A stretch of DNA of 49,417 nucleotides, taken from the NCBI GenBank assembly GCA_022704435.1, contig JAKJGK010000003.1:1-49417 (forward strand). The letters run 5' to 3'. Below the pieces are notes generated by a model that did not search any database, had not been told where the DNA came from, and was given only the letters and a program-made list of their open reading frames with translations. A program made the translations under genes and the position numbers. Each line of letters starts with the position of its first letter. Position 1 is the stretch's first letter. Shown here one piece after another: positions 982 to 33,809 of the stretch. Origin of the DNA: Synergistota bacterium (GTDB taxonomy: Bacteria; Synergistota; Synergistia; Synergistales; Aminobacteriaceae).

Positions 982-1029
982 TCAACCGCACTTCCTTTCC
1001 GTGGTGTATGTAAACCTTGTTGCCGATTC

Positions 1030-1058: not shown

Positions 1059-1089
1059 GATACAGATCGCATTATGCAGGAGGTATGGA

Positions 1090-1243: not shown

Positions 1244-1256
1244 CATGCTCCCGCTG

Positions 1257-1285
1257 TTGACATCCGCGCCTGCGAAAACTATATT
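1257..1285 (+). promoter_or_regulatory. Near-consensus sigma70 promoter for the ZIP transporter operon
   Basis: A perfect TTGACA (1257-1262), a 17-bp spacer and TATATT (1280-1285). Transcription would start near 1292, so the inverted repeat GCCGCCCC/GGGGCGGC (1289-1296/1312-1319) would sit at the very 5' end of the mRNA, about 50 nt before the start codon. Confidence 0.75.
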
Positions 1286-1372
1286 TGAGCCGCCCCGCGC
1301 GATAGGCGGGGGGGGCGGCCGACATCCGCGGTCGCCGGACTTGATCAAAACCGACCGGAGGGGGTAATTCTC

Positions 1373-2188: not shown

Positions 2189-2203
2189 AAAGGGGGAGTT
2201 GCG

Positions 2204-3334
2204 ATGCGGGCGAAGCTGGACGTGGAGCAGTACCTGAGGGATCTTGAGCACCTGGTGAACATCGACAGTCACACCGCGGACCCGGAGGGGGTGGAGGCCG
2301 TGGCCGGGTTCTTCGAGAGGGCCTTCGCCGAGGCCGGGTGGTCCGTCAAGCGGGTGGACATAGGTACCGGAGCGGGGCCGTGTCTCGAAGCGACCAACGG
2401 GCAGCCCCCCTACGACGCGCTGCTTCTGGGGCACATGGACACGGTCTTCCCCAAGGGCACTGTCTCGGATCGTCCGTACTCCCGCGACGGCGACCGCGCC
2501 TTCGGGCCGGGGGTGGTCGACATGAAGTCCGGCCTGCTGTTTGCCCTGTACGCGGCGCGCGAGTTGACCGCGACGGGAGCGTCGGGGTCTTTCTGCATCG
2601 CGTTCAACAGCGAGGAGGAGACCGGCTCGACGAGCGCCCGCCCGTGGATCGAGCGGCTGGCGCGGGAGAGTCGGAGCTCGATAGTGCTGGAGCCTGCGAG
2701 GGCGAGCGGGAACCTGGTGAACCAGCGCAAGGGCATCGGGCACATCCACGCTGTCTTTCACGGCAGGGCGGCTCACGCGGGGGTGGAGCCGGAGAAGGGG
2801 GCGAGCGCGGTGAACGAGATGGCCCGGTGGATCATCGAGCTCAACGAGCTTGCGAACGTCGACCGGGGCACCACCCTGAACACCGGCCTTGTGTCGGGCG
2901 GCACGGGGGCCAACGTGGTGCCGGAAGTCGCGTCCATCACGGTGGATGTGCGCGTCAGGAGCCTGGACGAGGCGGAGAGGATCGCCGCGCGCATAGAGGA
3001 GATGAAGGCGCGCCCCTTCACTCCGGGGGTGTCGGTCGACGCCGGGCTGGTGATGACGAGGCCCCCCATGAACCCGGACGCCGGGACGCAAAGGCTCTGC
3101 GCGCTGGTGGAGGAGGCCGCGGGGGAGGCCGGGGTGGAGTTCGGCTGGCAGGCGACCGGAGGAGGTTCGGACGGCAACTTTACAGCGGCCCTCGGGGTCC
3201 CGACGGTCGACGGAATGGGGCCCGTGGGCGGAAGGTCCCATTCGGTGGACGAGTACCTCGACCTCGCGTCGCTGCCCTCCAGGTTCGACATGCTCATGGG
3301 GGTCCTCGCGAGGATCCCTGGCTCGGAGGTCTAG
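2204..3334 (+). CDS. M20-family metallopeptidase (carboxypeptidase G2-like)
   Basis: A 376-residue cytoplasmic amidohydrolase likely to remove the C-terminal residue from N-acylated amino acids or small peptides with a di-zinc centre. Motifs in order: GHMDTVFPKG (His77, Asp79), GPGVVDMKSG (bridging Asp106), FNSEEETGS (catalytic and ligand Glu near 137-139) and GGRSHS (His346). The dimerisation domain lies between about 175 and 290 (start KGIGHIHAVFHGRAAHAG). No signal peptide is seen. The ribosome-binding site GGGGGAG lies 6 nt before ATG. The next gene starts 3 nt after the stop. The exact substrate is unknown; glutamate carboxypeptidase, aminoacylase-like and dipeptidase activities all occur in this group. 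Confidence 0.9.
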   Translation: MRAKLDVEQYLRDLEHLVNIDSHTADPEGVEAVAGFFERAFAEAGWSVKRVDIGTGAGPCLEATNGQPPYDALLLGHMDTVFPKGTVSDRPYSRDGDRAFGPGVVDMKSGLLFALYAARELTATGASGSFCIAFNSEEETGSTSARPWIERLARESRSSIVLEPARASGNLVNQRKGIGHIHAVFHGRAAHAGVEPEKGASAVNEMARWIIELNELANVDRGTTLNTGLVSGGTGANVVPEVASITVDVRVRSLDEAERIAARIEEMKARPFTPGVSVDAGLVMTRPPMNPDAGTQRLCALVEEAAGEAGVEFGWQATGGGSDGNFTAALGVPTVDGMGPVGGRSHSVDEYLDLASLPSRFDMLMGVLARIPGSEV

Positions 3335-3336
3335 CG

Positions 3337-4044
3337 GTGGTCGCCCCGGCGGCGACCGCCCGCAGGACGATAACGCGCCTGGGCGGCGATTCGCTCGCGT
3401 CGGCGGAGGACGAGATGCTGGTGGAGACGCGTCTTGTCCTGGTCGTGAACGGCGCGGAGGTCGAGAGCGCGGTCTGCACGGCCGGTTACGAGGAGTACTG
3501 GGCGGTCGGGCACCTGGTCTGCGGAGGCGCCGTGTCGAGAATCGAGGACGTTGAAGGGATCGACGCAGCCCCCGGCAGGGTGTCCGCGAGGGTCGCGGGG
3601 CGCGTCGGGCCCCGCCCGGAGGTCCCGTCGCGCATCGTTCGCGCATCCGTGCTGGTGGACGGCGCGGAGTGGCTTGCGGGGGCGCCCGTCTTCCGCGCCA
3701 CCGGCGGCACTCACGTGGCTGCCCTGGTGTCCCTGGACGGGGAGAGGCTGTTCAGGGTGGAGGACATCGGGCGTCACAACGCGGTGGACAAGGCGGTGGG
3801 GTGGGCGGTCATGAACCGCGTCCCGCTCGCGGGGGTGGCCCTGCTGGTGTCGGGCAGGCTGCCGTCCGACATGGTGGGCAAGGCCGTCGCGGCGGGAGTC
3901 CCGGTCATGGGCAGCGTGTCGGCGGCCACCTGGGACGGCGCCGCGGCCGCCGAGGCTGGAGGGGTTGTGCTGGCCGGGTTCATCCGCGGCGGCAGGATGA
4001 ACGTCTATACCTTCCCCGAGAGGGTATCGGGCAGCAGCCAGTGA
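3337..4044 (+). CDS. fdhD: FdhD-like formate dehydrogenase accessory protein lacking the CxxC motif
   Basis: A 235-residue protein with clear FdhD landmarks: FRATGGTHVAAL (119-130), VEDIGRHNAVDKA (141-153), VSGRLPSDMVGKA (171-183) and a GF.RGG..NVYT end. In known FdhD proteins a CxxC loop transfers sulfur from IscS to the Mo/W cofactor of formate dehydrogenase. Here the matching segment (about 98-112) has no cysteine at all; only Cys47 and Cys62 exist. It may therefore work differently, serve as a cofactor-binding relative, or be inactive. The GTG start at 3337 is chosen because GGAGGT (3325-3330) precedes it by 6 nt and it follows the M20 stop by 2 nt. No formate dehydrogenase gene lies in the window. 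The 3' end overlaps the convergent kinase gene by 40 nt. Confidence 0.88.
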   Translation: MVAPAATARRTITRLGGDSLASAEDEMLVETRLVLVVNGAEVESAVCTAGYEEYWAVGHLVCGGAVSRIEDVEGIDAAPGRVSARVAGRVGPRPEVPSRIVRASVLVDGAEWLAGAPVFRATGGTHVAALVSLDGERLFRVEDIGRHNAVDKAVGWAVMNRVPLAGVALLVSGRLPSDMVGKAVAAGVPVMGSVSAATWDGAAAAEAGGVVLAGFIRGGRMNVYTFPERVSGSSQ

Positions 4045-6305
4045 AGCAGCGCCTCCCAGAGCCTTTCGGCGGTCACGGGCTTGGGGACGTAGTCGTTCAT
4101 CCCGGCCTGCATGCAGGCGTCCTGGTCGCCCTTCATGGCCCTGGCGGTCATGGCCACTACCGGCACCAGCCGGTTGGGGAAGTCCTCCGGCATGGCGCGC
4201 AGACGGCGGGCGGCCTCCAGGCCGTCCATGTTCGGCATCTCGACGTCCATCAGGACGAGGTCGTAGGGGTCCATTGACAGTATCTCCAACGCCTCGACCC
4301 CGTCGGATGCGACGGCGGGAACGACGCCCAGCTTGCGCAGGATGGCGACCGCCACCTTCTGGTTTATCAGGTTGTCCTCCACCAGCAGGACCCGCTTCTT
4401 TGCGAGGGCCGACATGCACGACTCGTCAAGGGTCAGGGCCCCTCTCCGCTCGCCGGGCCGGGCCTCGGGACGGTCCGCCACCGGAAGCCTGACCGAGAAG
4501 CGGAAGAGCGAGCCGGGCCCGCCGCGCGCGGCAACCTGCGCCCTGCCGGGTGCCGGGCTCGCGACGGACAGCCGGCCGCCCATCATCTCGGCGAGCTGGC
4601 TGGTTATGGCGAGGCCGAGCCCGGTGCCTCCGTAGCGCCTGGTGGTGGACCTGTCCGCCTGGACGAACTTGTCGAATATGTGCGCGGCCCTGTCGGGAGG
4701 TACGCCCACGCCGGTGTCGCGTACGGTGAAGACCAGGTCCGCGTCTTTCGCGCCCGTCCGCTCGGAGTGGAGCTCCAGGGCCACCTCCCCCTCGTCGGTG
4801 AACTTGACCGCGTTGCTGAGCAGGTTGGTGAGCACCTGTCTCAATCGACCCGGGTCGCCGAGGACGAAGCGCGGCGCCTCGAGGTCGAAATCGCTCCTGA
4901 ACTGTATCCCCTTCTCGGCGGCCGCGGCGGCGAAGTGGGCCGCGACCCTGTCCACCAGTTCGCGCAGGTCGAAGCGGACGCTCTCGAGCTCCAGCCTGCC
5001 GGCCTCTATCTTGGAGAAGTCAAGTATGTCGTTCAGCAGGCCCAGCAGGGACTCCGCGCTGCTCAGAAGGGTCTCGGCGCAGTCCCTCTGGTCGTCGTTC
5101 AGCCCCTTCTCCAGGAGCAGCGAAGCCATGCCTATGATCCCGTTGAGGGGGGTGCGTATCTCGTGGCTCATGTTGGCCAGGAACTCGCTCTTGGCCACGT
5201 TCGCGCTCTCGGCCTTGCGCGCCAGCTCCTGCGACAGGCGCGACTCCTCCTCCAGCCGGCTCATCGCGGAGGCGAGGGCCCGCTCCGCGGCCCTTCGGGC
5301 GGTGATGTCGCGCGAGACCCCAAGTATCCCGGCCAGCTCGCCGGAGGGGGTATAGATGCCGGTGATGGAGGCGTCCGTCCACACGGTCGTCCCGTCCTTG
5401 CACGGCTGCTCGAGCTCCACGTGATTATCCTCGGGGTCGTCCAGAATCTTTTCGCCCTTCGCTATCCGCTCCCATATCCCCTTCATCCCTTCCACGAAGA
5501 GATCCAGCGATCCGGGGCAGATCGCCTCCTCGGTTGGCTGGCTCATTACCTCCTCGGGGGTGTAGCCGCGCAGGCGGAAGACCGACGGACTGACGTAGGT
5601 GAAGCGCCCCTGCAGGTCCAGGGTCCAGATCACGTCCATCGCGTTGTCCGCCACGAGCCTGAACCTCTCCTCGCTTTCGCGCAGCGCCTCCTCGGCGGCT
5701 CTCCTCGCCGTGATGTCGCGCACTACCGACAGGATCCCGATGAAGGCCCCATCGTCGGAGTAGAGGCCGGTGGACCTGGCCTCGGCCCAGAAGGTAGAGC
5801 CGTCCCTGCGGATCAGCTCCATCTCGCGCGATTTGCCGCTGTCGGGGTAGGGGAGGCCGGCAAGCACGGCCTCCTTGATTTGGAGGGCGCGCTCCTTGAG
5901 GGACCTGTCCTCCTTGCCCCCGCGGACGAGGTCCAGCGGGTCCATCCCTAGGAGCTCCGAAGGGGCGTATCCGAGCACGGCCGAGCACGACGGGCTGGTG
6001 TAGATGAAATGCCTGTCCAAGTCGGTAACCCAGATGATGTCCTTCGAGTCCTCGACGATCTTTCTGTAAAACTCCGCGCTCCTCCTGAGTCCGTCGGCGT
6101 CGTCGGGACCCCTGGTGAACGGGTGCGCGGACGCGGGGCGCGGGCGCGCGAGGCAACAGACCACCAACAGCAACGCGGCAACAAGGCCCGGCACCGCCGC
6201 GCCGCGCAGGGAGATCAGGCATAACAAAACAAGCAGAACCGTTGCGACGCCGACCGGGAGAAGTCGACGGGCGGCGGCTTTTTTCAGATCCGCGAAGGCT
6301 GTCAC
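4005..6305 (-). CDS. Hybrid sensor histidine kinase: 2 TM - PAS - PAS - HisKA - HATPase - receiver
   Basis: A 766-residue inner-membrane kinase. Two hydrophobic helices (about 16-34 and 38-53) leave almost no periplasmic domain, so sensing is probably cytosolic or in the membrane. PAS domains lie at about 77-205 and 210-340 (YTSPSCSAVLGYAPSELLG; YVSPSVFRLRGYTPEEV). HisKA has the phospho-acceptor His381 in FLANMSHEIRTPLNGIIGM. The ATPase domain has N-box LLSNAVKFTDEG, DTGVGVPP and GGTGLGLAI. The receiver begins at about 637 (RVLLVEDN) with acceptor Asp687 in LVLMDVEMPNMDG. It starts with GTG, 13 nt after the cheW stop, behind only a weak GAAAG site, so it may be translationally coupled. It lies in one minus-strand run MCP-cheW-kinase. 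The stimulus is unknown. Confidence 0.93.
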   Translation of the reverse strand: MTAFADLKKAAARRLLPVGVATVLLVLLCLISLRGAAVPGLVAALLLVVCCLARPRPASAHPFTRGPDDADGLRRSAEFYRKIVEDSKDIIWVTDLDRHFIYTSPSCSAVLGYAPSELLGMDPLDLVRGGKEDRSLKERALQIKEAVLAGLPYPDSGKSREMELIRRDGSTFWAEARSTGLYSDDGAFIGILSVVRDITARRAAEEALRESEERFRLVADNAMDVIWTLDLQGRFTYVSPSVFRLRGYTPEEVMSQPTEEAICPGSLDLFVEGMKGIWERIAKGEKILDDPEDNHVELEQPCKDGTTVWTDASITGIYTPSGELAGILGVSRDITARRAAERALASAMSRLEEESRLSQELARKAESANVAKSEFLANMSHEIRTPLNGIIGMASLLLEKGLNDDQRDCAETLLSSAESLLGLLNDILDFSKIEAGRLELESVRFDLRELVDRVAAHFAAAAAEKGIQFRSDFDLEAPRFVLGDPGRLRQVLTNLLSNAVKFTDEGEVALELHSERTGAKDADLVFTVRDTGVGVPPDRAAHIFDKFVQADRSTTRRYGGTGLGLAITSQLAEMMGGRLSVASPAPGRAQVAARGGPGSLFRFSVRLPVADRPEARPGERRGALTLDESCMSALAKKRVLLVEDNLINQKVAVAILRKLGVVPAVASDGVEALEILSMDPYDLVLMDVEMPNMDGLEAARRLRAMPEDFPNRLVPVVAMTARAMKGDQDACMQAGMNDYVPKPVTAERLWEALLHWLLPDTLSGKV

Positions 6306-6318
6306 GACTTTCGGCGGC

Positions 6319-6783
6319 TTAATCCGAGGACTGGGCCAGGGCCTCCTGCTCCTCGGCGGAGAATATGCGATCGAGGTCCAGGAAGATGATGAGCCTCCCC
6401 TCGACCTTGGCCACTCCCCTGATGAAGTCCGAGCTGACGCCGCTCGCGACTATCGGGGGGGTCGGCTCGATGGCCTCGTCCGGTATGCGCAGGATCTCGG
6501 AGACCCCGTCCACCAGGATCCCGATGTTCTGGCCGGACATGTTGACCACAATGATGCGCCTCTCGGCGTCCACCGACTCGCTCCTGTCGGCCACCAGGAA
6601 CCTCTTGCACAGGTCCACTATGGGGACTATCTGCCCCCTGAGGTTGACGATCCCCTCCACGAAGTCCATCGACTGCGGAATCGTGGTGATGTTCTGGAGC
6701 TTGACTATCTCCCTCACCCGGGAGATGTCTATGCCGAACTCCTCCTTGCCCAGGCCGAATACCACCAGCTGCTGCTCAGCCAT
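6319..6783 (-). CDS. cheW: CheW-like chemotaxis coupling protein
   Basis: A 154-residue single CheW domain: QLVVFGLGKEEFGIDISRVR at the start, IPQSMDFVEGIVNLRGQIVP in the middle and IRGVAKVEGRLIIFLDLD near the end, all standard for CheW. It normally bridges chemoreceptors and the kinase CheA. No CheA, CheY, CheB or CheR gene lies in the window; its neighbours are a chemoreceptor upstream and a hybrid kinase downstream. The start is supported by AAAGGAGGAGA close before ATG. The acidic C-terminal tail (AEEQEALAQSSD) extends a little past the domain. Confidence 0.94.
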   Translation of the reverse strand: MAEQQLVVFGLGKEEFGIDISRVREIVKLQNITTIPQSMDFVEGIVNLRGQIVPIVDLCKRFLVADRSESVDAERRIIVVNMSGQNIGILVDGVSEILRIPDEAIEPTPPIVASGVSSDFIRGVAKVEGRLIIFLDLDRIFSAEEQEALAQSSD

Positions 6784-6840
6784 CTTCTCTCCTCCTTTAT
6801 CGCAGGTTCCTGCGAAATGTCGGGGTACACGTCAATTCTA

Positions 6841-8967
6841 TCAGATCGCCCCCCCGGCCTCCACCCTGAATCGTCCGACCGAGCGCCTCATCTCCCCGGC
6901 CAGGCCGACCAGCTCGTCCGCCGCAGAGGCGATCTCCGCCGCCATACGACCCTGCTCCTCCATCGAGCGGTTCATTCCCTCGACCTGCTCCGCTATCTCC
7001 GCGCTCGAGCGCGCGACGTGGTCCATACCCGCAGTCATCTCCTCCGCGCTCGCCGACTGCTCCTCCATCACCGCGGCTATCGACTGAACGTTCTCCGTCA
7101 CGGACCCGATCTTATCCACCACGTCGTCTATCGTGGCCTTGGTCTCCTTCGCCCGCTGGACCAGCTTCTCTATCTGACCCACGCTGCTCTTCTGGTCGCT
7201 CCTGGCGTTGTCCGTCTTGCCGGAGATCTCCCCTATCACACGGCCGACCTCGCCCGCGGCGCGGTTGGACTCCTCGGCAAGCTTCCTGACCTCCTCGGCG
7301 ACCACCGCGAACCCCCTGCCCGCCTCGCCCGCGCGGGCAGCCTCTATCGCCGCGTTCAAAGCCAGAAGGTTGGTCTGGTCGGCTATCCCGGCTATGGTGT
7401 CCACGAAACCGGTGATCCCCGCCACGGAGCCGGCAAGGTCGTCCACGGCCTCGCTGACCTTGACTCCGGAGCGCGACACCTCGGCTATCATCCTCACCAT
7501 GTCGTCGAGGGCGGCGCCTCCCTTCTCGGCGGCCCTGGATATCTCCTGGGCGCGCTCGCCGGTCTCGGCGGCGGACTTCGCTCCGGCCTGGGCGCCGCTT
7601 GACACCTCCTCTATCCCTGCGTTGGCCTCCTGGACGGCGCTCGAGGTCTCCTGGGTGTTGCGCACCACCCTGCCGGCGAGGGCGAGGGCCTCCTGGACGG
7701 ACGCGCTGGAGCGCTCCGCGGCCGTGCTCATCTCCTCGGCACGCGTCAGGACGCTGCCCGCGCCGGACAGGATGTTGACGACGGCGTCGGCGGTGCCCTC
7801 TATCATGGCGTTCAGCGCGTCGGCGACGCCGCGGATCTCCTCTATCGTCGTGCGGACGGTCAGGCGGGTGGTGAGGTCGCCGGTGTCGGCCACGCGCCTG
7901 GCCTCGTCGGCCACCCTGCGCAGGGGCCTGGTCAGGCTGCGCGAGAAGAGCAGCACCACCACGATGGAGGCCAGCAGCACCGCGGCTATGCCGATGTAGA
8001 CGGCGCGCCTCATCCCGGTTATGGCCGCCAGGGACTCGGCGGTGTCCGCGGCCGCGGCCACTATGTAGCCGTTGCCCAGGCGGCGGAAGGCTAGCGTCTT
8101 CTCGGCGCCCTCGTAGGCGTAGGAGAACCTGCCCTCGTGCTCGTTCAGCATGGTGTCGGCGAAGGGGGCCAGCGAGCCGCCGGAGACCTCCCTGAATCCT
8201 GGGCCGTCGAAGGCGTGCACGGGGTGGTACAGGAACTTCATGCCGCGGTTGAGCAGCAGGGCGTAGCCGTGGTCGTATATCCTGACCCTCTGGAGCATCT
8301 GCCTGACGAAGGAGAAGTCGAAGGTCATGCCCGCCACGGCGACCACCTTGTCGTCTATCTTGACCGGCATGGCGTAGGTGACCACCTCGGAGCCGTCCTC
8401 CCTGCGGCTGATGTCGCCCCAGTAGGGGGCACCGGTGTCAAGCGCGGACCAGTACCAGGAGGTCGTCTGGTTCTTTCGGTCGATGAGGTCGGAGGGGGAG
8501 AAGGTGTTCTCGTCCAGGTACATGTACAACGAGTTCTCGTCCTTGCGCTCGAAGCCGGCCATGTAGGTCTTGGCGACGCCGAAGATCTCCGGGTTGAATA
8601 TCACGAACAGCCTGCGCGCCTCTCTCGACTGGACGCCCAGGTCGTTGATGAACTTGCTGTTCTGGGCCCCGAACTGCGGGATCACTATGTCGGCGATGTC
8701 GGGGCTGGGCATGTTGGGGAAGCGAGTGGTAATCAGAGCCGACAGCGCCTGCAGAATGCCGTCGAAGCGGTTGAACGTGGCGTCGAGCTCGAACGCTATG
8801 GAGTTTGCGGTGGCGATCTCGTAGTCGTTTACCAGCTTCTGGATGCTGTTGCCCGATATGTTCATCGCGTAGAAGGCTATGCCCCCCACCGACGCCACCA
8901 GGAGCACTATAACCACGGCGAGAATGCGCGCCCCCAGCCTGTTGAACCTGAACAAGTTGACCCTCAT
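6841..8967 (-). CDS. Methyl-accepting chemotaxis protein with a periplasmic Cache-type sensor
   Basis: A 708-residue chemoreceptor. TM1 is at about 12-34. A roughly 280-residue periplasmic domain follows, with Cache-like features ([40 protein letters not shown]), typical of sensors for small organic acids, amines or amino acids. TM2 is at about 318-343 and a HAMP linker at about 344-398 ([20 protein letters not shown]). The cytoplasmic signalling domain contains the hairpin-tip sequence [20 protein letters not shown] strong AAGGAGG site precedes ATG. It is the first gene of the run MCP-cheW-hybrid kinase, 57 nt before cheW. The ligand cannot be told from sequence. Confidence 0.95.
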
Positions 8968-9018
8968 CGGTACTACCTCCTTGACTTTCGGGGCCGTATC
9001 GCCGTCCCCGAATAAAGT

Positions 9019-9774: not shown

Positions 9775-9846
9775 AGCCGCGGAGGAAAGGCCGAGTGGAA
9801 ACGCCGGACCGCGCCGAATCGGCGTGCGACCGCGCGCGCTTTGGTA

Positions 9847-9852
9847 TATACT
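9847..9852 (+). promoter_or_regulatory. Candidate -10 element for the parA operon
   Basis: TATACT inside the A/T-rich TTTGGTATATACTTG, about 42 nt before the parA start. No good -35 box is seen 16-18 bp upstream, so only the -10 is proposed. Confidence 0.35.
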
Positions 9853-9893
9853 TGAACAAATGCGACTATCGTTCGTCTTCGGAGGGATCCTGT

Positions 9894-10661
9894 ATGAAGA
9901 TCGTCGGGTTTTGCAATCTCAAGGGGGGGGTCGGCAAGACGACCGCCTGCCAGAATCTGGCGGTGGCCCTGGCCCGTTCGGGTCTGAGGGTCGCAGCGCT
10001 GGACCTGGATCCGCAGAGCAACCTCACGACGGGGTTCGGGATATCGGTCCCGGAGGAGGGCCCCTACATCTACGACTTCCTGATGGGGGACGCGCCGTTC
10101 CAGGAGGTGAAGACCGCGCGCGAGGGGGTGGACGTGGTGCCCAGCACCCTCGACCTGGCGGTGGCCGAGATGCGGCTGGAGAGCGAGCCCGGACGCGACA
10201 CCCTGCTGAAGGACGCGCTCGAGTCCGCCCCCCTGTCCGACTACGACGCGGTGTTCCTGGACAGCCCGCCTCAGCTCGGCATATTCACTCGGAACGTGCT
10301 GACCGCATGCGAGGAGATAATAGTGCCGCTCGACAGCGAGTTCTACAGCCTCTCCGGCCTGCGGCTTCTGTCGCAGACGGTCGACCTGTACCGCAAGCGT
10401 CTGAACAGAGGGCTTCGGATCTCCGGGGTGCTGTTGACCAGGCACAACCCCAAGATCATAATGAACCGCGAGGTGGAGGCCGAGATCCGCAACCACTTCG
10501 GGGACAGGGTCTTCAACAACTACATTCGGCGCAACATCAGCCTCGTCGAGGCGGGCGGCGCCGGGCTCTCCATCTTCGGCTACGACGAGGGCAGCAACGG
10601 CGCCGCCGACTATGCGGCCGTCGCCGCGGAGCTTCTTGAGAGGTGGAAGAACGATGGCTAA
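9894..10661 (+). CDS. parA: ParA/Soj-family ATPase
   Basis: A 255-residue cytoplasmic P-loop ATPase. The deviant Walker A motif KGGVGKTT (10-17) is near the N-terminus, followed by ALDLDPQSNLTTGFG and the Walker B-like VFLDSPPQLG. ParA proteins form DNA-bound, ATP-dependent dimers that position chromosomes, plasmids or protein clusters. ATG 9894 is chosen because GGAGGG (9881-9886) precedes it by 7 nt; upstream in-frame codons lack such a site. No ParB gene or obvious parS site lies nearby. Instead its last 8 nt overlap the next, unrecognised gene. This and the short length suggest an orphan ParA that positions a cargo rather than a chromosomal ParAB pair, but that is inference. Confidence 0.9.
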   Translation: MKIVGFCNLKGGVGKTTACQNLAVALARSGLRVAALDLDPQSNLTTGFGISVPEEGPYIYDFLMGDAPFQEVKTAREGVDVVPSTLDLAVAEMRLESEPGRDTLLKDALESAPLSDYDAVFLDSPPQLGIFTRNVLTACEEIIVPLDSEFYSLSGLRLLSQTVDLYRKRLNRGLRISGVLLTRHNPKIIMNREVEAEIRNHFGDRVFNNYIRRNISLVEAGGAGLSIFGYDEGSNGAADYAAVAAELLERWKNDG

Positions 10662-24629: not shown

Positions 24630-26282
24630 TTGTCTACCGTTGAGTTCTACACCGATCCAGCGAGCTTCTCGCAGATCAAGTCGCAGGCCAGGACCACGAT
24701 CGAGTCGGCGTTCTACGGGAACAACGTGGTGCCGGTGACTGGCCTCGAACAGGCCTACGAGCTTGCGCGGAGGTCCCCGGGGACCGTCGAGATGACCGGG
24801 ATGCCGGTCCACCGGCCGGTGGAGCAGGGGCTTCCGGCCGGGGCGAACGTCCTGCTGATGAACGACGGCACGGTGGTGGGGCGGTGCGCGGCCGCCAGGA
24901 AGATCGTGGGCGAGCCGGGAGTCAACATGGCGGACCTCGCCCCGCTGCTGAGGGAGGCTGTCTACGGGGCCAGGTTCCGGACCTTCTACTCGGCCGAGGC
25001 GTACATCGGCCTGCAGGAGGACTTCATGGTCAAGGCGCACCTGATGGTGCCCAAGGACTTCGAGAACCTCGTCTACAACTGGCTGTTGAACTTCCAGTAC
25101 ATGAACGAGGACTACGACAGAATGTACGCCTCCTCGAGGAGGATGGACGACGGCGACATCTTCGTGTTCGCGGACCCGGACTGGTCCTCGCCCGACTACC
25201 CCTACGGGCTGGCCTTCTTCGACCCGCTGCACAACTGCGCCGCCGTGCTCGGCATGCGCTACTTCGGCGAGCTCAAGAAGGGGACTCTGACACTGGCGTG
25301 GGGGATAGCCGCCCGCAACGGCTACGCCTCCTGCCACGGCGGCCTGAAGCGGTACAACCTCCAGGGCGGTCGCTCCTTCGTGGCGGCGGTGTTCGGCCTG
25401 TCCGGCTCCGGCAAGTCGACCATAACCCACGCGCGCCACGGCGACAAGTACGACGTGACCGTGCTGCACGACGACGCCTTCGTCATCCAGACGAAGGAGA
25501 AGTACTCGATCGCGCTCGAGCCCTCCTATTTCGACAAGGTGCAGGACTACCCGATGGGGTGCGACGACAACAGGTTCATCATTTCCCTTCAGAACTGCGG
25601 CGTCACCAGGGGGGCCGACGGGCTGCTGCAGGCCGTGACCGAGGACTTGCGAAACGGCAACGGCAGGGCGATCAAGTCCAAGTTCTGGTCGCCCAGGAGG
25701 GTGGACAGGATCGACGAGCCCATCGACGCGATATTCTGGCTGATGAAGGACTCCTCCCTGCCGCCCGTGGTGAAGCTGAAGGACCCGGACCTTGCGGCGG
25801 TGCTCGGCGCGACGCTGGCCACCAAGAGGACGTCCGCGGAGCGCCTGGCCTCGGGGGTGGACCCTAACGCCCTAGTGATCGAGTCCTACGCGAACCCGTT
25901 CCGGACCTACCCGCTCTCGGTCGACTACGAGAGGTTCAGGTCTCTCTTCGAGGACGGGGTCGCCTGCTACATCCTGAACACCGGAGACTTCATGGGCAGG
26001 AAGGTGAAGCCCGCGGACACGCTGGGCATCGTGGAGTCGATCGTGGAGGGGACAGCGGAGTTCGCCCCCCTGCTCGCGTTCGGCGACATGGAGACGATCG
26101 ATCTTCCCTCCTTCCCGATCGACCGCGACGACGAGCACTACCGCCGCGAGCTGCTTTCACGCCTCAGGGATCGGCTGTCCTTCGTCGTGTCGAGAGCGAC
26201 CGAGAAGGGCGGGCTGGACAAGCTGCCTCCCGAGGCCGAGGCGGCGCTGCGGAAGGCGATAGGCGGGATCGAGGCGGTGTGA
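24630..26282 (+). CDS. Phosphoenolpyruvate carboxykinase (ATP)-like protein
   Basis: A 550-residue protein with the PEPCK-type P-loop: VFGLSGSGKSTITHA (about 255-269), a kinase-2-like HDDAF (280-284) and an earlier conserved core (GLAFFDPLHNCAAVLGMRYF, KKGTLTLAWGIAARNGYASC). True ATP-PEPCKs interconvert oxaloacetate and PEP. Here the region after the P-loop is unlike the classical enzyme (no IGDDEHGW-like block), so this is a divergent relative that could have another phosphotransfer substrate. The start is TTG 24630, with GAGGAG 8 nt upstream. It has its own leader and ends in a hairpin shared with a convergent gene. The superfamily is secure; the activity is uncertain. Confidence 0.85.
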   Translation: MSTVEFYTDPASFSQIKSQARTTIESAFYGNNVVPVTGLEQAYELARRSPGTVEMTGMPVHRPVEQGLPAGANVLLMNDGTVVGRCAAARKIVGEPGVNMADLAPLLREAVYGARFRTFYSAEAYIGLQEDFMVKAHLMVPKDFENLVYNWLLNFQYMNEDYDRMYASSRRMDDGDIFVFADPDWSSPDYPYGLAFFDPLHNCAAVLGMRYFGELKKGTLTLAWGIAARNGYASCHGGLKRYNLQGGRSFVAAVFGLSGSGKSTITHARHGDKYDVTVLHDDAFVIQTKEKYSIALEPSYFDKVQDYPMGCDDNRFIISLQNCGVTRGADGLLQAVTEDLRNGNGRAIKSKFWSPRRVDRIDEPIDAIFWLMKDSSLPPVVKLKDPDLAAVLGATLATKRTSAERLASGVDPNALVIESYANPFRTYPLSVDYERFRSLFEDGVACYILNTGDFMGRKVKPADTLGIVESIVEGTAEFAPLLAFGDMETIDLPSFPIDRDDEHYRRELLSRLRDRLSFVVSRATEKGGLDKLPPEAEAALRKAIGGIEAV

Positions 26283-26969: not shown

Positions 26970-28373
26970 ATGGAAAAGAATCTGGATAAATCACACGCGA
27001 TGGGGACCGACTCGATCGGCCGCCTGATGTTGCGCTTCTCGCTGCCCGCGATCGTCGGCATGGTGGCGAACGCCCTCTACAACATCGTAGACAGGCTCTT
27101 CGTCGGGCAGACGGTGGGAGCGGCGGGGATCGGCGCGATAAGCGTGGTATTCCCCTTCACGATAATGGTGATAGCATTCGGGCTGCTGATAGGCGTGGGA
27201 GCGGGCTCCTACATCTCCATATCGCTGGGCGAGAAGAAGCACGCCAGGGCCGAGAAGGCCATGGGCAACGCGATAGTACTTCTCCTGTGCGGCGGGGCGG
27301 TTCTTACCCTGCTCGGAGTCCTGTTCGCCGAGCCCATACTGGTGCTGTCCGGCGCGAGCGAGACCCTGCTGCCGATGTCGCTCGAGTACATGGGGTACGT
27401 GGTCTGGGGGGTCTTCTTCTCCACCCTTGCCTTCGGTCTGAACTTCTTCATCCGGGCGGAGGGGAACCCGCGCTACGCGATGTTCACCCTCATCATCGGC
27501 GCGGGGGCGAACGTGGCGCTCGACGCCTACTTCATCCTGGGGCTGGACATGGGGGTGGCGGGCGCGGCGATAGCCACGCTGATCTCGCAGGTGATATCGG
27601 CGGCCTGGGCGGTGATGTTCTACGTGCGCAGGAGGGGGACGCTCCGCTTCCGCGCGAAGAACCTGTCACTCGAATGGCCGGTGATCCGCCGCATACTGGC
27701 GGTGGGGGCGGCCCCGGCTCTCACCGAGGTCAGCTTCACCTACATCCTGATCGTGTTCAACCGGACGCTGCGCTTCTACGGCGGAGACCTCGCCATATCG
27801 GCGATGGGGATATTCTTCAGCCTGGACAGCCTGTTCTTCCTGCCGGTGCTGGGGCTGGCGGGCGGGGTTCAGCCGATAATCAGCTACAACTACGGGGCCA
27901 AGAACTACGACCGGGTGATCCGCTCCGTGCTGGCCGCGATAAAGATCGGGGCCCTGTTCTTCACCGCGAGCTTCGCCCTGGTGATGCTGGTACCCGATTA
28001 CATGATACGCCTGTTCAACTCCGACAATGCGGAGCTGATGGCGATGGGCGCGAGGGGGATGCGCCTCGGCTACTGCGGCATAATCATGGCCTCGGTGAGC
28101 CTGGTGGCGTCCCACACATTCCAGGCGATCGGCAAGGCGCGGATTGGGCTGTTCCTGACTCTGTCCAGGCACTTCCTGTTCATCCTGCTGCCCCTGTTCC
28201 TGCTCCCGCCCATCCTAGGGATCGACGGGGTGTGGCTGTCGATGCCCCTGTCGGACCTCGGGGGGGCTCTGGCGGGCGGGTGGTTCCTGAGAAGGGAGTT
28301 CCGCGAGATGAGGTCGTCGGAGGCTCTCCTGCGACTGGTGCCGGCGGAGGGGTGCGGCGGATCGCCGGATTGA
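26970..28373 (+). CDS. MATE-family multidrug/cation efflux transporter
   Basis: A 467-residue membrane protein with about 12 hydrophobic helices. MATE hallmarks include LRFSLPAIVGMVANALYNIV near the N-terminus, FVGQTVGAAGIGAISVVFP and the mid-protein repeat LAGGVQPIISYNYGAKNYDR that opens the second half. It exports organic cations or drugs using a Na+ or H+ gradient. CGGAGGAAGG precedes ATG by about 5 nt. It has its own promoter. The MBL-fold gene starts 52 nt after its stop with a separate -10. Substrate unknown. Confidence 0.94.
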   Translation: MEKNLDKSHAMGTDSIGRLMLRFSLPAIVGMVANALYNIVDRLFVGQTVGAAGIGAISVVFPFTIMVIAFGLLIGVGAGSYISISLGEKKHARAEKAMGNAIVLLLCGGAVLTLLGVLFAEPILVLSGASETLLPMSLEYMGYVVWGVFFSTLAFGLNFFIRAEGNPRYAMFTLIIGAGANVALDAYFILGLDMGVAGAAIATLISQVISAAWAVMFYVRRRGTLRFRAKNLSLEWPVIRRILAVGAAPALTEVSFTYILIVFNRTLRFYGGDLAISAMGIFFSLDSLFFLPVLGLAGGVQPIISYNYGAKNYDRVIRSVLAAIKIGALFFTASFALVMLVPDYMIRLFNSDNAELMAMGARGMRLGYCGIIMASVSLVASHTFQAIGKARIGLFLTLSRHFLFILLPLFLLPPILGIDGVWLSMPLSDLGGALAGGWFLRREFREMRSSEALLRLVPAEGCGGSPD

Positions 28374-28380: not shown

Positions 28381-28425
28381 AACAGCGGAACATTCCCTCA
28401 TATTACAGCAAGAGGAGGAAATTTG

Positions 28426-29421
28426 GTGCAAGATTTCAACCTCAGCCGCGACAACGGAATTTTCGCAGTCCACGAGGGATACGGGTCGGCTTTGTACATG
28501 CTCGACCTGCCCCTCCCGCTCCCCGGATTCGACCATCACCTGTCCTCCTGGCTCCTGCGCGATCAGCGCGGCGGCAGGAACATACTGGTCGACACCGGCC
28601 CCTCGGCCTCCGTCGCCCACCTCGGACGTTCGCTGCGCTCCGTGGGGGTCGACAGGCTCGACCTGGTCCTGCTGACCCACGTCCACGCGGACCACGCGGG
28701 AGGGGTCGCCGACCTGCTGGAGCTCTTCCCAGAGGCTATGGTGCTCGCTCCCGAGAGGGGGGTAAGGCACCTGGTGCGGCCGGAGAGGCTCGAGGAGGCC
28801 ACCAGGGCGACCCTGGGCGACGAGATCGCCGACGCCTTCGGCCCGATACGCCCGGCGGCGCCCGACAGGTTCCTGGACGCGTCCTCTCCTCTGCTGGACC
28901 GGATCACCGTGATTCTGACTCCCGGACACGCGTCGCACCACAACTCCTATGTCCTGAAGGCGGGGTTCGGCCGGGTGCTCTTCCCCGGCGAGGCCGCTGG
29001 TGTGGGGCTGGGGGAGGCCGTCCGCCCGCTCTGGCTCGAGGGTGGCGAGGTCCCCGCCACGCCTCCGTACCGCTTTCCAGCTACCCCGCCCAGGCTCGAC
29101 GGCGCGGCCATGTACAGATCCATGGAGCTGCTCATGCCGGAGCGCGGCGCCAAGTACCTGTGCTTCAGCCACTACGGCTGGACCGAGGACGCGGCGGGAA
29201 CCCTCGAGGGGGCTGTCATCCAGTTTCGCGAATGGGAGGAGCGGGCGCGCGCCTGCGCGGTTCCCGAGGAGGACGCGGCGGTCGAGGCCCTGTTCGAGGA
29301 GGTGACGCGGGAGGACCCGCAACTCGGCCTTTGGCGTTATCTTAGGCCGGAGCAGAGGGATAAGGAGGGGTACTTCATCAGGAACAGCCTGAGGGGGGTA
29401 GTTAGATGGGTTCGGTCGTGA
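28426..29421 (+). CDS. MBL-fold metallohydrolase
   Basis: A 331-residue cytoplasmic metallo-beta-lactamase-fold hydrolase. Ligand motif LLTHVHADHAGG (His85, His87, Asp89, His90), a further TPGHASHHNSYVL histidine motif, FPGEAAGV and a final LCFSHYGWTEDA histidine are seen. A 60-70-residue C-terminal helical extension (about 265-331) follows. Similar proteins include lactonase- and glyoxalase-like enzymes, so the substrate is unclear. GTG 28426 is chosen since AGGAGG lies 7 nt upstream; the in-frame TTG 28423 would be only 4 nt away. The DUF1576 gene follows after 64 nt. Confidence 0.88.
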   Translation: MQDFNLSRDNGIFAVHEGYGSALYMLDLPLPLPGFDHHLSSWLLRDQRGGRNILVDTGPSASVAHLGRSLRSVGVDRLDLVLLTHVHADHAGGVADLLELFPEAMVLAPERGVRHLVRPERLEEATRATLGDEIADAFGPIRPAAPDRFLDASSPLLDRITVILTPGHASHHNSYVLKAGFGRVLFPGEAAGVGLGEAVRPLWLEGGEVPATPPYRFPATPPRLDGAAMYRSMELLMPERGAKYLCFSHYGWTEDAAGTLEGAVIQFREWEERARACAVPEEDAAVEALFEEVTREDPQLGLWRYLRPEQRDKEGYFIRNSLRGVVRWVRS

Positions 29422-29485: not shown

Positions 29486-30766
29486 ATGGGAGAGCTCACT
29501 GGAAAGTTCGGTGCCGAGCGCTTCCTGGTAGGAGACGGGATAAAAAGGCTCTTTCTTTATCTCTTCGGCGCGACCCTGTGCGCCGTCGGCCTGCATCTCG
29601 ACTCTCCGGCCTCCTCCTTCTTCGGCCTGTTGAGGATCATCGTGGAGCCGGACTACCTCATCTCCGACTACTTCTACGTCGGCGGCCGAGGCGCCGCGTT
29701 TCTCAACAGCGGCATCCTGGTGCTGCTGTTTACCTCCATCCTGGTCTACTACAGGGTTAGGATCAGGGGAATATCCATAGCCTCGATATTCACAGTGGCA
29801 GGGTTCGCCATGTTCGGCAAGAACCTGTTCAACGTCTGGTTCATTCTCGCCGGGGTCTGGCTGTACGCCAGGCACCAGGGAGAGTCCTTCATGAAGTTCA
29901 TATACATAGCCTTCTTCGGCACCTCGCTCGCGCCGCTGGTGAGCCAGCTGATGTTCGGGCTGTACATACCCTCCCCGTTCAAGTACGTCGCCGGTGCGGC
30001 GGCCGGCCTCTCCGCGGGCTTCCTGCTCCCCTCCCTGGTGCCGGCCTTCCTCTCGGTCCACAAGGGCTACAACCTGTACAACGTCGGCTTCACGGCCGGG
30101 ATGATAGGCACGATCCTGGTGTCGCTGCTGCGATCCCACGGGTTCATAGCCGAGGCGAGGGTCCTGTGGACCGCCGGGGGCGCCCAGGACATCGCCCCGC
30201 TGCTGGCCGAGATCTTCCTGCTGATGATACTGGTGGGCAACATGCTCAACAGGAAGTCTTTCAGGGGCCTGTACGACATGTGGAATCACCCGGGGCGCCT
30301 TCTGGCGGACTTCGTGGACATCTTCGACTTCCCGCTGACCCTCGTGAACATGGGAATCAACGGGCTCATAGTCACGGTGTACCTGCTGGTGATCAAGGGG
30401 GACTTCAACGGACCCACCCTGGGGGGAATACTGACGGTCGTAGGCTTCAGCGCCATGGGCAAGACCCCCAGGACCATCCTGCCGGTGATGGGGGGAGTAA
30501 TCATAGGCAGTCTGTCCAAGGGATGGAGCCTCACGGACCCGTTCGTCCAGCTTGCCGCCCTGTTCGGCACGACCCTGGCCCCGATATCGGGCGAGTTCGG
30601 CTGGAAGGCCGGGATGCTGGCGGGCTACATTCATTCGTCCGTGGTGCAGTACGTGGGCGTGCTGCACGCGGGCTTCAACCTTTACAACAACGGCTTCGCG
30701 GGGGGACTGGTGGCCGGAATGCTGGTCCCGCTGTTCGAGGCGCTCAGGGGGAGGGAGAGACGATGA
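29486..30766 (+). CDS. DUF1576 family membrane protein
   Basis: A 426-residue polytopic membrane protein of the DUF1576 family, whose function is unknown. About ten hydrophobic segments are visible. An internal duplication can be seen: KGYNLYNVGFTAGMIGTILV (about 192-211) and AGFNLYNNGFAGGLVAGMLV (about 395-414) occupy matching places at the ends of the two halves. The halves also share IAFFGTSLAPL and AALFGTTLAPI. Such inverted or direct two-fold repeats are common in transporters, so a transport role is plausible but unproven. GAAGGGGCGG lies upstream of ATG 29486. It overlaps the next small gene by 4 nt (ATGA). Confidence 0.86.
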   Translation: MGELTGKFGAERFLVGDGIKRLFLYLFGATLCAVGLHLDSPASSFFGLLRIIVEPDYLISDYFYVGGRGAAFLNSGILVLLFTSILVYYRVRIRGISIASIFTVAGFAMFGKNLFNVWFILAGVWLYARHQGESFMKFIYIAFFGTSLAPLVSQLMFGLYIPSPFKYVAGAAAGLSAGFLLPSLVPAFLSVHKGYNLYNVGFTAGMIGTILVSLLRSHGFIAEARVLWTAGGAQDIAPLLAEIFLLMILVGNMLNRKSFRGLYDMWNHPGRLLADFVDIFDFPLTLVNMGINGLIVTVYLLVIKGDFNGPTLGGILTVVGFSAMGKTPRTILPVMGGVIIGSLSKGWSLTDPFVQLAALFGTTLAPISGEFGWKAGMLAGYIHSSVVQYVGVLHAGFNLYNNGFAGGLVAGMLVPLFEALRGRERR

Positions 30767-31113
30767 AGTATGAAAGGCTCGTCGTCTCGCGCATAGTAAG
30801 CGAGATGATGAACTTCTTCTTTTCCATGGGGGCGGGCGATTTTACCGCTCAAGTCGTACGGAGCGACGAGAAGTTCGAGATCACCATAGAGACGGACTAC
30901 GCCGGGAACCAGTCGAGCAAGATCCGGGAGATGACCCGGCTCTTGAGGATGCCGCGCGCGGAGGAGACCGAGGAGTACTTCTGGTCCCTGTCGGGCGAGA
31001 TAAGCACCGGGCAGGAGATCTACCTGGTGGGCATAATGACCGATCACGTGTCGGTGGAGCACGACGAGGAGGCCAGGCGCGTCCGCATCGGCCTCGTGCG
31101 TCTGTTGAGCTGA
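30763..31113 (+). CDS. Unknown 116-residue protein coupled to DUF1576
   Basis: No family is recognised with certainty. The protein is soluble and acidic: RIVSEMMNFFFSMGAGDFTA at the start, ITIETDYAGNQSSKIREMTR in the middle, DHVSVEHDEEARRVRIGLVR at the end. It looks like a compact alpha/beta domain. Its ATG overlaps the DUF1576 stop by 4 nt with GGGAGGGAGAG upstream, so the two are translationally coupled and probably work together. The DUF917 gene follows 18 nt later. Confidence 0.78.
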   Translation: MKYERLVVSRIVSEMMNFFFSMGAGDFTAQVVRSDEKFEITIETDYAGNQSSKIREMTRLLRMPRAEETEEYFWSLSGEISTGQEIYLVGIMTDHVSVEHDEEARRVRIGLVRLLS

Positions 31114-31131
31114 CCTGAAAGGGGAAGGACA

Positions 31132-32208
31132 ATGTCGAAGCTTCAACTGACCATGGACATACTCGAACAGGCGTTGCTTGGCGCCTCGATCCTGGGCGGC
31201 GACGGCGGGACATCGATAGACGAGGCGATGATGCTGGGGGAGCTCGCCCTCAAGGTAAACCCCCCGGTCCTGCTTGACATAGAGGACCTGCCGCCCGAGG
31301 GGACGGTGGTGACCTGCGCGACGGTCTCCTGCCCTCACAGGGGGAAGAAGACTCCGTTCGTCAGCCCCAGGGCCCACGTCAGGAGCCTCGAGCTGCTGCT
31401 CGAGAGCGGGCTGGAGCGCCCGGTGGCGCTTACATCCAACGAGAGCGGAAGCGGCGGGGTGGTCAACGGATGGCTCCAGGCCGCCGTCCTGGGCCTGCCG
31501 CTGGTGGACGCTCCCTGCAACGGGCGCGCCCACCCGACGCCGGAGATGGGGTCGATGGGGCTGCACCTGGACCCCGACTACCACGGCCTCCAGGCTTTCG
31601 CGGGCGGGGACCCGGACCAGGGGTGCTACATCGAGGGGGTGCTGCGCGGAAAGGTCAAGACCGTCTCCTCCTCCGTCAGGCACGTTGCCTGCGCGGCCGG
31701 CGGGCTGCTGGCCGTCGCCAGGAACCCGGTCAAGGTCGAGTTCCTCCAGAAGAACGCGGCGCCGGGGGGTGTCAAGCTGGCCATCTCTCTGGGAGCGGCG
31801 ATTCTGAAGGCGCGAAGCGGCGGAGGCGGCGCGGTGGCCGAGGCGGTGCTCGAGATGCTGCACGGCACGGAGCTGTGTCGCGGGCGGGTCGGCGAGGTCG
31901 ACCGGTTCACCGCCGGGGGGATAGACTCGGGCTCCGCCGTCATAGGCGACATGTCCCTGACCTTCTGGCGCGAGTACATGACCGCGGAGCGGGACGAGGA
32001 GCGGCTTGCCACCTTCCCGGACCTCATAACCGTGATCGACGCCGAGACCGGAATGACGGTGTCCGGGTCGGAGATCGCCCCGGATATGAACGTCATACTC
32101 GTCAAGATCCCGAAGGCCAGGCTGCTGCTGGGTGCCGGGATGCGCTGCCCCGACCTGTTCGAGCAGGCCGAGAAGGTGATAGGAAAGGACCTGCTGCAGT
32201 ACCTCTAG
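31132..32208 (+). CDS. DUF917 domain protein (hydantoinase-related)
   Basis: A 358-residue cytoplasmic protein of the DUF917 family, which often lies beside hydantoinase-type enzymes and cytosine permease-like transporters; its activity is unknown. Seen: LLGASILGGDGGTSIDEAMM near the N-terminus, LPLVDAPCNGRAHPTPEMGS and a Gly-rich FTAGGIDSGSAVIGD. Many DUF917 proteins fuse or neighbour ATP-grasp or hydantoinase subunits; none is present here. It follows the DUF1576 pair after 18 nt with GAAAGGGGAAGG upstream and is closed by a strong terminator, so DUF1576, the small protein and DUF917 form one transcription unit. Confidence 0.86.
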   Translation: MSKLQLTMDILEQALLGASILGGDGGTSIDEAMMLGELALKVNPPVLLDIEDLPPEGTVVTCATVSCPHRGKKTPFVSPRAHVRSLELLLESGLERPVALTSNESGSGGVVNGWLQAAVLGLPLVDAPCNGRAHPTPEMGSMGLHLDPDYHGLQAFAGGDPDQGCYIEGVLRGKVKTVSSSVRHVACAAGGLLAVARNPVKVEFLQKNAAPGGVKLAISLGAAILKARSGGGGAVAEAVLEMLHGTELCRGRVGEVDRFTAGGIDSGSAVIGDMSLTFWREYMTAERDEERLATFPDLITVIDAETGMTVSGSEIAPDMNVILVKIPKARLLLGAGMRCPDLFEQAEKVIGKDLLQYL

Positions 32209-32239: not shown

Positions 32240-32269
32240 AGGGGGCTCCGCCGGGGCCCCGTTTTTTTC
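32240..32269 (+). terminator. Rho-independent terminator after the DUF917 gene
   Basis: A GC-rich stem-loop (GGGGGC...GGGGCCCC, 32241-32260) is followed directly by GTTTTTTTC and soon by a second T-run. It closes the DUF1576-DUF917 unit. Confidence 0.85.
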
Positions 32270-32319: not shown

Positions 32320-32393
32320 GATCCCGATAGGTAATTCTACTGATTCTGCCGAAAGTAGTTTTGCATAGATCATTAGGGAAAGGAGCGTCGTCC

Positions 32394-33809
32394 GTGGAGA
32401 GCAGAAGGAACGCGGCATGGTACTGTTTTCTGGTGGCAATCGCGTTGCTGCCCCTCTCCGGGTGCACGCTCTCCGGGGACGCAGGCAGCTACGACGAGGC
32501 TCGTGCCATCGCCGAGGAGGCCTACATCTTCGCTTACCCGATGCTCGAGAACTACAGGATGATGCAGCTCCAGGCGGTGGCCACGGACAGCTTCAACCGC
32601 TTCGTGCACGCCTCGGAGCTCCCCGTTCCCCCGGCCAAGGAGGCCTCAGCCGCGGCCGGCGGGGTCAGGGAGCAGAGGGACACCCTCTCCTCAACCGCCT
32701 GGCTGGACCTCCAGGCCGAGCCCATGGTGCTCGTCCTGCCTCCCATCAAGGACCGCTACTTCTCCTTCCAGTTCGTGGACATCTTCACGTTCAACTTCGC
32801 CTATGTGAGCCCGAAGACCTTTGGCCCGGCCGGCGGCGTCTTCCTGATCGCAGGCCCCGACTGGAACGGCAGGAAGCCCCGCGGGGTGGACGCGGTGTTC
32901 AGGTCGGAGGGCAATTTCGTCATGTGCATAGGTCGCACCGCTGTCGACGGCCCGGAGGATCTGGACAGCGTACGGGCGCTGCAGCAGCGCTACGTGCTGA
33001 AGCCGCTCAGCTCCTGGCTGGGCGTCCCTGCGCCCAAAGCCCCGCCGCGCGACCCGTTCCCGCTGTACATGAGGATAGCCGCGGACTCCGCTCATTTCAT
33101 ATCGTACCTTAACTTCCTCCTCGGCCAGTCGAGGCCGCACCCGTCGGAGGAGCAGCTGTTCGAGCGCTTCGGCCTGGTGGGGATAGGCCCCTCCTACCGA
33201 TTTGACGCCAACGAGTTCAACGGCACGATACGCGACGCCATAGACGACGCCGTCGCCTCGGCCCTTCAGCAGATAGAGGAGGCCCAGGTGCTGCTGTGCG
33301 AGAAGTCCAACGGCTGGGCGGTCTACCGCAGGGTGTTCGGCGACCGCGAGAGGATGCAGGGGCTCTACCTGGTCCGCGCAGCCGCCGCCAGGACCATGCT
33401 CTACGGAGCCGACCAGGAGGAGACGACCATCATCAACGCCTTCCTGGACGAGGACGGGGACCCGCTGGACGCCTCCGCGCACTCCTACGTCCTCAAGTTC
33501 GAGAAGGACGAGCTACCCCAGGTGGAGGCCTTCTGGTCGCTGACCATGTACGCCCTGCCCGGGCAGAACCTGGTGGAGAACCCGCTGGAACGCTACACCC
33601 TCGGCAGCAGGAGCTCGTCGCTGGTCTACGGCGCGGACGGCTCCCTCACCATATACATCGGCGCCCGCTCGCCGAGGGGCTCGAACGAGGCCAACTGGCT
33701 CCCCGCGCCCGAGGGGCCTTTCTCCCCGACCCTCCGGATGTACCTTCCGATGACGATCCCCGGGACACCGCAGTACGTCCCCCCGCCGATACGCAAGGCG
33801 ACCTGGTAG
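32394..33809 (+). CDS. DUF1254/DUF1214 domain lipoprotein
   Basis: A 471-residue protein exported as a lipoprotein: basic start, hydrophobic core and lipobox PLSGC with Cys24. The body matches the DUF1254 (about 55-190) plus DUF1214 (about 345-455) family: EEAYIFAYPMLENYRMM, DLQAEPMVLVLPPIKDRYFS, GVFLIAGPDWNGRKPRGVDA and FWSLTMYALPGQNLVENPLE near the end. The molecular function of this family is unknown. GTG 32394 is chosen as start since AAAGGAG lies about 8 nt before it. It is a single-gene unit with its own promoter and terminator. Confidence 0.9.
   Translation: MESRRNAAWYCFLVAIALLPLSGCTLSGDAGSYDEARAIAEEAYIFAYPMLENYRMMQLQAVATDSFNRFVHASELPVPPAKEASAAAGGVREQRDTLSSTAWLDLQAEPMVLVLPPIKDRYFSFQFVDIFTFNFAYVSPKTFGPAGGVFLIAGPDWNGRKPRGVDAVFRSEGNFVMCIGRTAVDGPEDLDSVRALQQRYVLKPLSSWLGVPAPKAPPRDPFPLYMRIAADSAHFISYLNFLLGQSRPHPSEEQLFERFGLVGIGPSYRFDANEFNGTIRDAIDDAVASALQQIEEAQVLLCEKSNGWAVYRRVFGDRERMQGLYLVRAAAARTMLYGADQEETTIINAFLDEDGDPLDASAHSYVLKFEKDELPQVEAFWSLTMYALPGQNLVENPLERYTLGSRSSSLVYGADGSLTIYIGARSPRGSNEANWLPAPEGPFSPTLRMYLPMTIPGTPQYVPPPIRKATW

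Follow-up and report, generated by a model that had tools for sequence, protein, structure and literature searches.

The membrane protein family DUF1576 (PF07613) is represented in a 49,417-nucleotide stretch of Synergistota DNA (assembly GCA_022704435.1, contig JAKJGK010000003.1, positions 1 to 49,417 of the forward strand; the window), where it is followed by a 116-residue protein, referred to here as SMALL, and by a DUF917 family hydrolase. The closest described systems in predicted shape are the Amt/Mep/Rh ammonium channels, the urea transporters (UT, SLC14, PF03253) and the NqrB/RnfD proteins (PF03116). A passage of PMC10433425 describes GlnK as the regulatory partner of AmtB and places a conserved aspartate, D160, eight residues before the pore histidine H168. 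PMC5764959 presents a Kuenenia sensor in which an Amt is fused to a histidine kinase, and PMC10643135 notes the close resemblance of NqrB to the transporters of urea and ammonium. A literature search on DUF1576 itself found nothing.

In the window, DUF1576 (426 residues; positions 29486-30766, + strand; Pfam PF07613, 6.7e-107, two tandem copies), SMALL (30763-31113, + strand; recognized from its structural model and co-occurrence) and DUF917 (358 residues; 31132-32208, + strand) follow one another closely. The start of SMALL overlaps the stop of DUF1576 by 4 nt (ATGA), and 18 nt separate SMALL from DUF917, exactly the coupling that a sequence-only reading of this DNA had described. The first two genes form the conserved core, a near-obligate pair. 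PF07613 exceeds its cut-off in 19 of the 99 related genomes surveyed, and a profile search of the whole genomes with SMALL returned 20 places in 18 of the 99, every one beside DUF1576. All 18 belong to the 19 genomes with DUF1576, and in the exception, G041, the contig is cut inside the gene. The association is strong (Fisher p 7.6e-19 for 18/19 vs 0/80, uncorrected for shared ancestry). In the 20 DUF1576 loci of these genomes that were enlarged and inspected (the relative loci), SMALL lies 3' of DUF1576 in 19, the remaining one, L050, being cut by the contig end.

The pairing extends across several phyla. This is apparent from the best 80 of at least 442 DUF1576 relatives (the named loci), several of them mutually related, which span Synergistota, Firmicutes-type lineages, Thermotogota, one spirochaete, Pseudomonadota, Cyanobium and others. 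In 55 of these 80 loci SMALL follows DUF1576 directly, its start usually overlapping the DUF1576 stop or lying within a few bases of it. The 25 named loci without SMALL comprise 12 labelled Pseudomonadota, L098, three labelled cyanobacteria and nine others. In two Geosporobacter loci (L068 and L070), DUF1576 stands without SMALL after genes that by eye are citrate-lyase-like and oxaloacetate-decarboxylase-like; a second DUF1576 copy of Geosporobacter subterraneus (L066) does carry SMALL.

The sequence-only reading had treated all three genes as one unit. This order does recur, in nine loci of eight other genomes of the family, but elsewhere the genes stand apart: of the 20 relative loci, 9 have DUF917 next to the pair, as do 6 of the 80 named loci, every one from Synergistota. 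The condition that this reading had set for its own refutation, that the three genes seldom co-occur, thus receives a mixed answer. The three-gene unit was therefore rejected as the conserved core, since DUF917 is clade-specific. A MATE gene precedes DUF1576, directly or ahead of an MBL gene, in 10 of the 20 relative loci; it is found in all eight of the nine DUF917-bearing loci whose upstream side is visible, and in none of the nine SMALL-bearing loci without DUF917, among which L049 has no upstream sequence. L047 has MATE and was left out of the latter count, its contig ending in SMALL. A close MBL homologue stands between MATE and DUF1576 in L041, L042 and L044 and in no other relative locus. 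In a tree of 31 sequences, from which one short row had been removed, the ten DUF1576-linked DUF917 proteins (nine loci and the window) form one clade with support of 99/100, distinct from the remaining copies that these and related genomes encode. On present evidence, the order MATE-(MBL)-DUF1576-SMALL-DUF917 is an extension specific to one Synergistaceae clade that arose once.

The two halves of DUF1576 align to each other with an hhalign probability of 99.8% (E 2.8e-30, 30% identity), in agreement with the transporter-like internal duplication proposed earlier from the sequence. The motif H-x-G-x-x-x-Y-N-x-G occurs once per half, and its residues (H192, G194, Y198, N199 and G201; H394, G396, Y400, N401 and G403) are invariant in all 70 rows of an alignment of the window protein with 69 of the 80 named loci. 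The AlphaFold model (pLDDT 92.3, pTM 0.92) was compared with the PDB by Foldseek, and the 1000 best Foldseek chains were realigned with VIA-align 2. Amt, Rh and urea channels fill the top 31 VIA-align rows, with Z of 9.7-12.3 over 237-265 residues, on a scale where helical proteins may reach Z 13 by chance; 1u77, 8qpf and 6eu6 give Z 12.1-12.3 over about 250 residues (root-mean-square deviation 4.8-5.0), and urea transporters reach 11.3. Four RnfD/NqrB rows follow at Z 8.7-8.9, before a drop to UlaA at 5.6. Because the first 35 rows all belong to one known superfold and a gap follows, DUF1576 is predicted to adopt an Amt/Rh/urea-channel/NqrB-type fold; the prediction concerns a shared fold only, and neither common descent nor membership of Amt or UT. 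In a Pfam scan at E <= 0.1, DUF1576 matched PF07613 only and gave no match to PF00909, PF03253 or PF03116. With Amt/Mep/Rh channels and GlnK the pair thus shares the predicted fold, two related halves, an invariant histidine in each half and a small cytosolic operon-mate; unlike them, it falls outside PF00909, and its partner resembles GHKL proteins rather than PII.

SMALL has no Pfam or NCBIfam match at E <= 0.1, and its homologues (54 scanned with Pfam) yield scattered weak matches only, the best at 0.0013. In its model (pLDDT 88.7), the order of helices and strands is that of the GHKL fold, represented by SpoIIAB, the CA domains of histidine kinases, SiaB and ChpT. Foldseek matches it to histidine-kinase domains and ChpT with probability near 1 (1.00 for histidine-kinase domains), the best E being only 4e-3, while VIA-align matches it to anti-sigma factors and SiaB at Z 8.1-8.9, the highest value belonging to an anti-sigma factor. 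The ATP-binding motifs of that family are, in contrast, largely lost. In an alignment of the window protein with 53 of 56 SMALL matches (54 rows), what we take to be the N-box Glu, placed without a residue-by-residue alignment, is retained in 49 of 54 sequences, and the presumed N-box Asn position (Glu+4) is Tyr or Phe in 50 of 54; a DxGxG/GxGxG-type pattern occurs in 1 of 54. As the Glu is kept but the Asn and Gly-rich motifs are gone, SMALL is probably a protein-binding pseudo-ATPase with a GHKL/HATPase fold.

Neighbouring genes in other phyla may hint at the cargo. Within the stretch retrieved around each locus, urease and/or urea-transporter genes lie near DUF1576 in nine of the 80 named loci (L091, L098, L099, L110, L114, L120, L129, L130 and L131); eight belong to the 12 loci labelled Pseudomonadota, and the title of the ninth, L098, names no phylum. 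A UT gene is already present in eight of the nine, which makes simple urea uptake by DUF1576 less likely. Pfam matches confirm UT together with urease beta and a CobW/HypB/UreG-type GTPase in L098, UT in L110 and L131, UreD in L114, urease alpha in L130 and a further CobW/HypB/UreG-type GTPase in L129. The orientation varies: DUF1576 is divergent from UreA in L098 and L130 and convergent with UT in L110 and L114, UreD lies just upstream of it in L114, and in L129 a UreG-type gene ends about 10 bases before it on the same strand. The Pseudomonadota loci without urease or UT genes are L107, L119, L117, whose contig begins immediately ahead of the gene, and L124, with little upstream sequence. 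In L124, on a Hyphomicrobiales contig, a gene for a NikR-type nickel regulator (3227-3766) is directly downstream of DUF1576 and convergent to it.

Mrp-type genes are found near DUF1576 in eight of the named loci (L064, L085, L091, L098, L099, L124, L129 and L130). L064 has MrpC-MrpD-like genes immediately upstream of DUF1576. In L099 the frame of DUF1576 continues into a Pfam MNHE domain, constituting a Pfam-confirmed DUF1576-MrpE fusion; comparable long DUF1576 frames were seen by eye in L119 and L130. The long frame of L119, from Thiohalocapsa, is directly followed by a gene for an Ion_trans_2 pore-domain protein (9839-10597).

The explanation that we tentatively prefer, with slightly less than even confidence, is that the DUF1576 proteins form a family of their own, so far unstudied, that channels or transports small solutes, with SMALL as its dedicated partner and ammonia or ammonium as its likeliest cargo, to which one clade has added MATE and DUF917. 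A cargo of the ammonia type is suggested because the family recurs near urease, UT and Mrp genes in Pseudomonadota and is common among anaerobes, including Clostridia-type lineages and Synergistota. Amino-acid fermenters are numerous among these anaerobes, and in them the same cargo would be plausible. Near urease, where a UT is present, a channel of Amt/UT type would suit the product side, i.e., ammonia/ammonium or CO2, and Mrp antiporter genes would suit proton/sodium balancing during ammonia exit. The next candidates for the cargo would be CO2/bicarbonate or a small urea-like amide. SMALL, as a cytosolic degenerate GHKL domain co-translated with the channel, would probably act as its gate or as a reporter of its state, in the way that GlnK serves AmtB or the histidine kinase serves the Kuenenia sensor Amt. 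In the Synergistaceae clade of the window, a channel, a hydrolase and an exporter, sometimes with an MBL hydrolase, may handle a cyclic ureide-like compound containing sulfur or nitrogen. Gene order, pairing, internal duplication, predicted folds and the urease and Mrp linkage are computed results, whereas the cargo, its direction of movement, the gating and the chemistry of the linked DUF917 subgroup are inferred.

Several results weigh against a channel with ammonia-type cargo. Genome searches found neither urease alpha nor Amt in the window genome, and replacement of Amt by DUF1576 was rejected, as the 99 relatives show no pattern of exclusion or co-occurrence (Amt in nine, together with DUF1576 in G002, G004 and G088). 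Urease alpha is also missing from the genomes of L107 and L119, two of the 12 genomes behind selected DUF1576 loci, so urease is no obligatory companion of the family. In a survey of the class to which one gammaproteobacterial genome belongs, DUF1576 exceeded the cut-off in 1 of 369 genomes, the seed genome itself, and the urease linkage therefore rests on the 80 best loci, among which those with urease include related lineages. Most of the Firmicutes loci read contain the pair alone, with variable neighbours. With regard to the fold, Foldseek alone places the urea channels at E 0.14-0.26, its top PDB rows being unrelated proteins. Profile comparison by hhalign of DUF1576 with Amt, UT and RnfD gave E 0.16-0.29 (0.16 for Synergistota Amt, 0.24 for UT), no better than the MATE control (0.078); this test of kinship is powerless, because UT fails it against Amt as well. 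The profile sets excluded the Amt of L161 and L169, the RnfD of L171, L175, L176, L180 and L181, and the UT of L114; for Amt and RnfD, the reading frame was mostly not cleanly recovered or the gene was partial. Finally, there is no Asp 8 residues ahead of H192 in DUF1576, and the equivalence of this residue to the Amt twin-His is consequently not established.

A bolder version of the preferred explanation, which must be considered doubtful, regards DUF1576-SMALL as an unrecognized branch of the Amt/Rh/UT/NqrB fold: in anaerobes it would be an ammonia/ammonium release valve worked by a dead-ATPase GHKL protein, and in Pseudomonadota it would be wired, and even fused, to Mrp subunits near urease, so that nitrogen from urea or amino acids would exit as ammonium, coupled to ion exchange. 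The same Mrp linkage can be read without any small-solute cargo, DUF1576 then being an NqrB-like module that translocates Na+ or H+ and is coupled to Mrp-type antiporter subunits. The NqrB/RnfD proteins as next-best fold matches, the Mrp-type genes around eight of the 80 loci, the MrpC-MrpD-like genes of L064 and the MNHE fusion of L099 are all consistent with such a module. It is nevertheless unlikely, as the ammonium and urea channels score above NqrB/RnfD, most loci have no Mrp genes nearby, and the linkage to urease and UT would be left unexplained. As regards membership of the NqrB/RnfD family itself, the unit contains no Nqr/Rnf partner genes, and the window genome has no PF03116 match. 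A role as a sensor, in which the membrane part would bind ammonium or another solute and signal through the GHKL-like partner, in the manner of the Amt-histidine kinase sensors, appears very improbable. The Kuenenia sensor 6eu6 is one of several fold matches tied at the top (Z 12.2), and SMALL has the predicted fold of a kinase ATPase domain; however, the N-box Asn and the Gly-rich pattern are lost from SMALL, which also has no phosphorylatable histidine domain, and no response regulator is conserved beside it among the loci read.

The proposal of the sequence-only reading, an uptake and breakdown unit in which DUF1576 would import a hydantoin- or amide-like substrate and DUF917 would degrade it, is judged distinctly unlikely. 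DUF917 does belong to a hydantoin-related family: it now corresponds to the Pfam domains S-Me-THD_N (PF06032, 50.8 bits, 2.6e-13) and S-Me-THD_C (PF20906, 88.3 bits, 5.3e-25), both with cut-offs of 27, and the family motifs are well preserved in the DUF1576-linked subgroup. Judged by the family name, the window protein would act on a thiohydantoin-like ring, and a urea-channel-like predicted fold of DUF1576 would suit a cyclic urea derivative. The full-length matches to the thiohydantoin (NF058529) and S-methyl-thiohydantoin (NF058532) desulfurase models reach, however, only 243 and 238 bits, about half of the required 440 and 450, and the protein falls in its own subclade; ten other Synergistota DUF917 proteins, DUF1576-linked and unlinked, are all below these cut-offs too. 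The one solved structure matched by the DUF917 profile, 2o3i, is annotated as a hypothetical protein, and literature searches on thiohydantoin desulfurase and on ergothioneine, hydantoin and desulfurization found nothing. A D-hydantoinase just above its cut-off (393.4 vs 393.25 bits) is present in the genome and keeps the hydantoin proposal in play as a rival; it is encoded on another contig (G000:C96), however, where its neighbours are folate-linked and carbamoyltransferase-like genes. Hydantoinase_B is absent from the window genome, and no hydantoinase was found among the nine window proteins between 23133 and 33809 that were scanned with Pfam and NCBIfam. MATE proteins, in addition, are usually exporters. 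As a general function of the family, hydantoin uptake does not hold, because DUF917 is a minority neighbour and SMALL a near-universal one; the urease, UT and Mrp links found elsewhere point the same way. The cluster around the D-hydantoinase (L196, positions 599-8981) contains genes for an ArgE/YgeY-like peptidase, a YgeW-like carbamoyltransferase, the D-hydantoinase, formate-tetrahydrofolate ligase, FolD, a TRAP-type binding protein and a cyclodeaminase-like protein; all names except that of the hydantoinase were given by eye, and the set resembles anaerobic purine/ureide breakdown.

The window shows the full form of the clade-specific arrangement. The probable unit opens with a MATE-family exporter (26970-28373, + strand; Pfam MatE, 1.5e-41), followed after 49 nt by an MBL-fold metallohydrolase (28423-29421, + strand; TTG start as listed; Pfam Lactamase_B, 3.2e-22) and, after a further 64 nt, by DUF1576, all on the same strand; a stem scan of the + strand found no terminator-like site between MATE/MBL and the three-gene set. 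The unit is closed by a hairpin at 32242-32267 (+ strand), with an 8-pair stem of which 7 pairs are G-C and a subsequent T run, which by its shape appears to be an intrinsic terminator. The element proposed earlier is thus in place, but its description as strong would derive from shape and position alone: the hairpin folds at -16.4 kcal/mol (z -1.77), 16 of 200 shuffles fold equally well, and sites of this type number 2 per 10 kb against 4.8 in shuffles. Beyond it, on the same strand, lies a DUF1254+DUF1214 protein with a lipoprotein-like start (32361-33809), a close homologue of which occupies the equivalent place in L034 and L041. On the other side, a 550-residue protein (24630-26282) carries a divergent phosphoenolpyruvate-carboxykinase (ATP) domain with a P-loop and scores far below the NCBIfam enzyme cut-offs.

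Ammonium is excreted in quantity by many fermenting anaerobes, yet Amt is present in only 9 of the 99 relatives of the window genome. DUF1576 may represent an overlooked route for ammonia-like solutes. If this is true, a channel family spread over several phyla with its own gating partner, linked in some of them to urease and Mrp genes, would make ammonia release, ureolysis and pH balance open to tests on a defined gene pair, and a GHKL protein that preserves its fold without an ATP site would acquire a role as a channel regulator.

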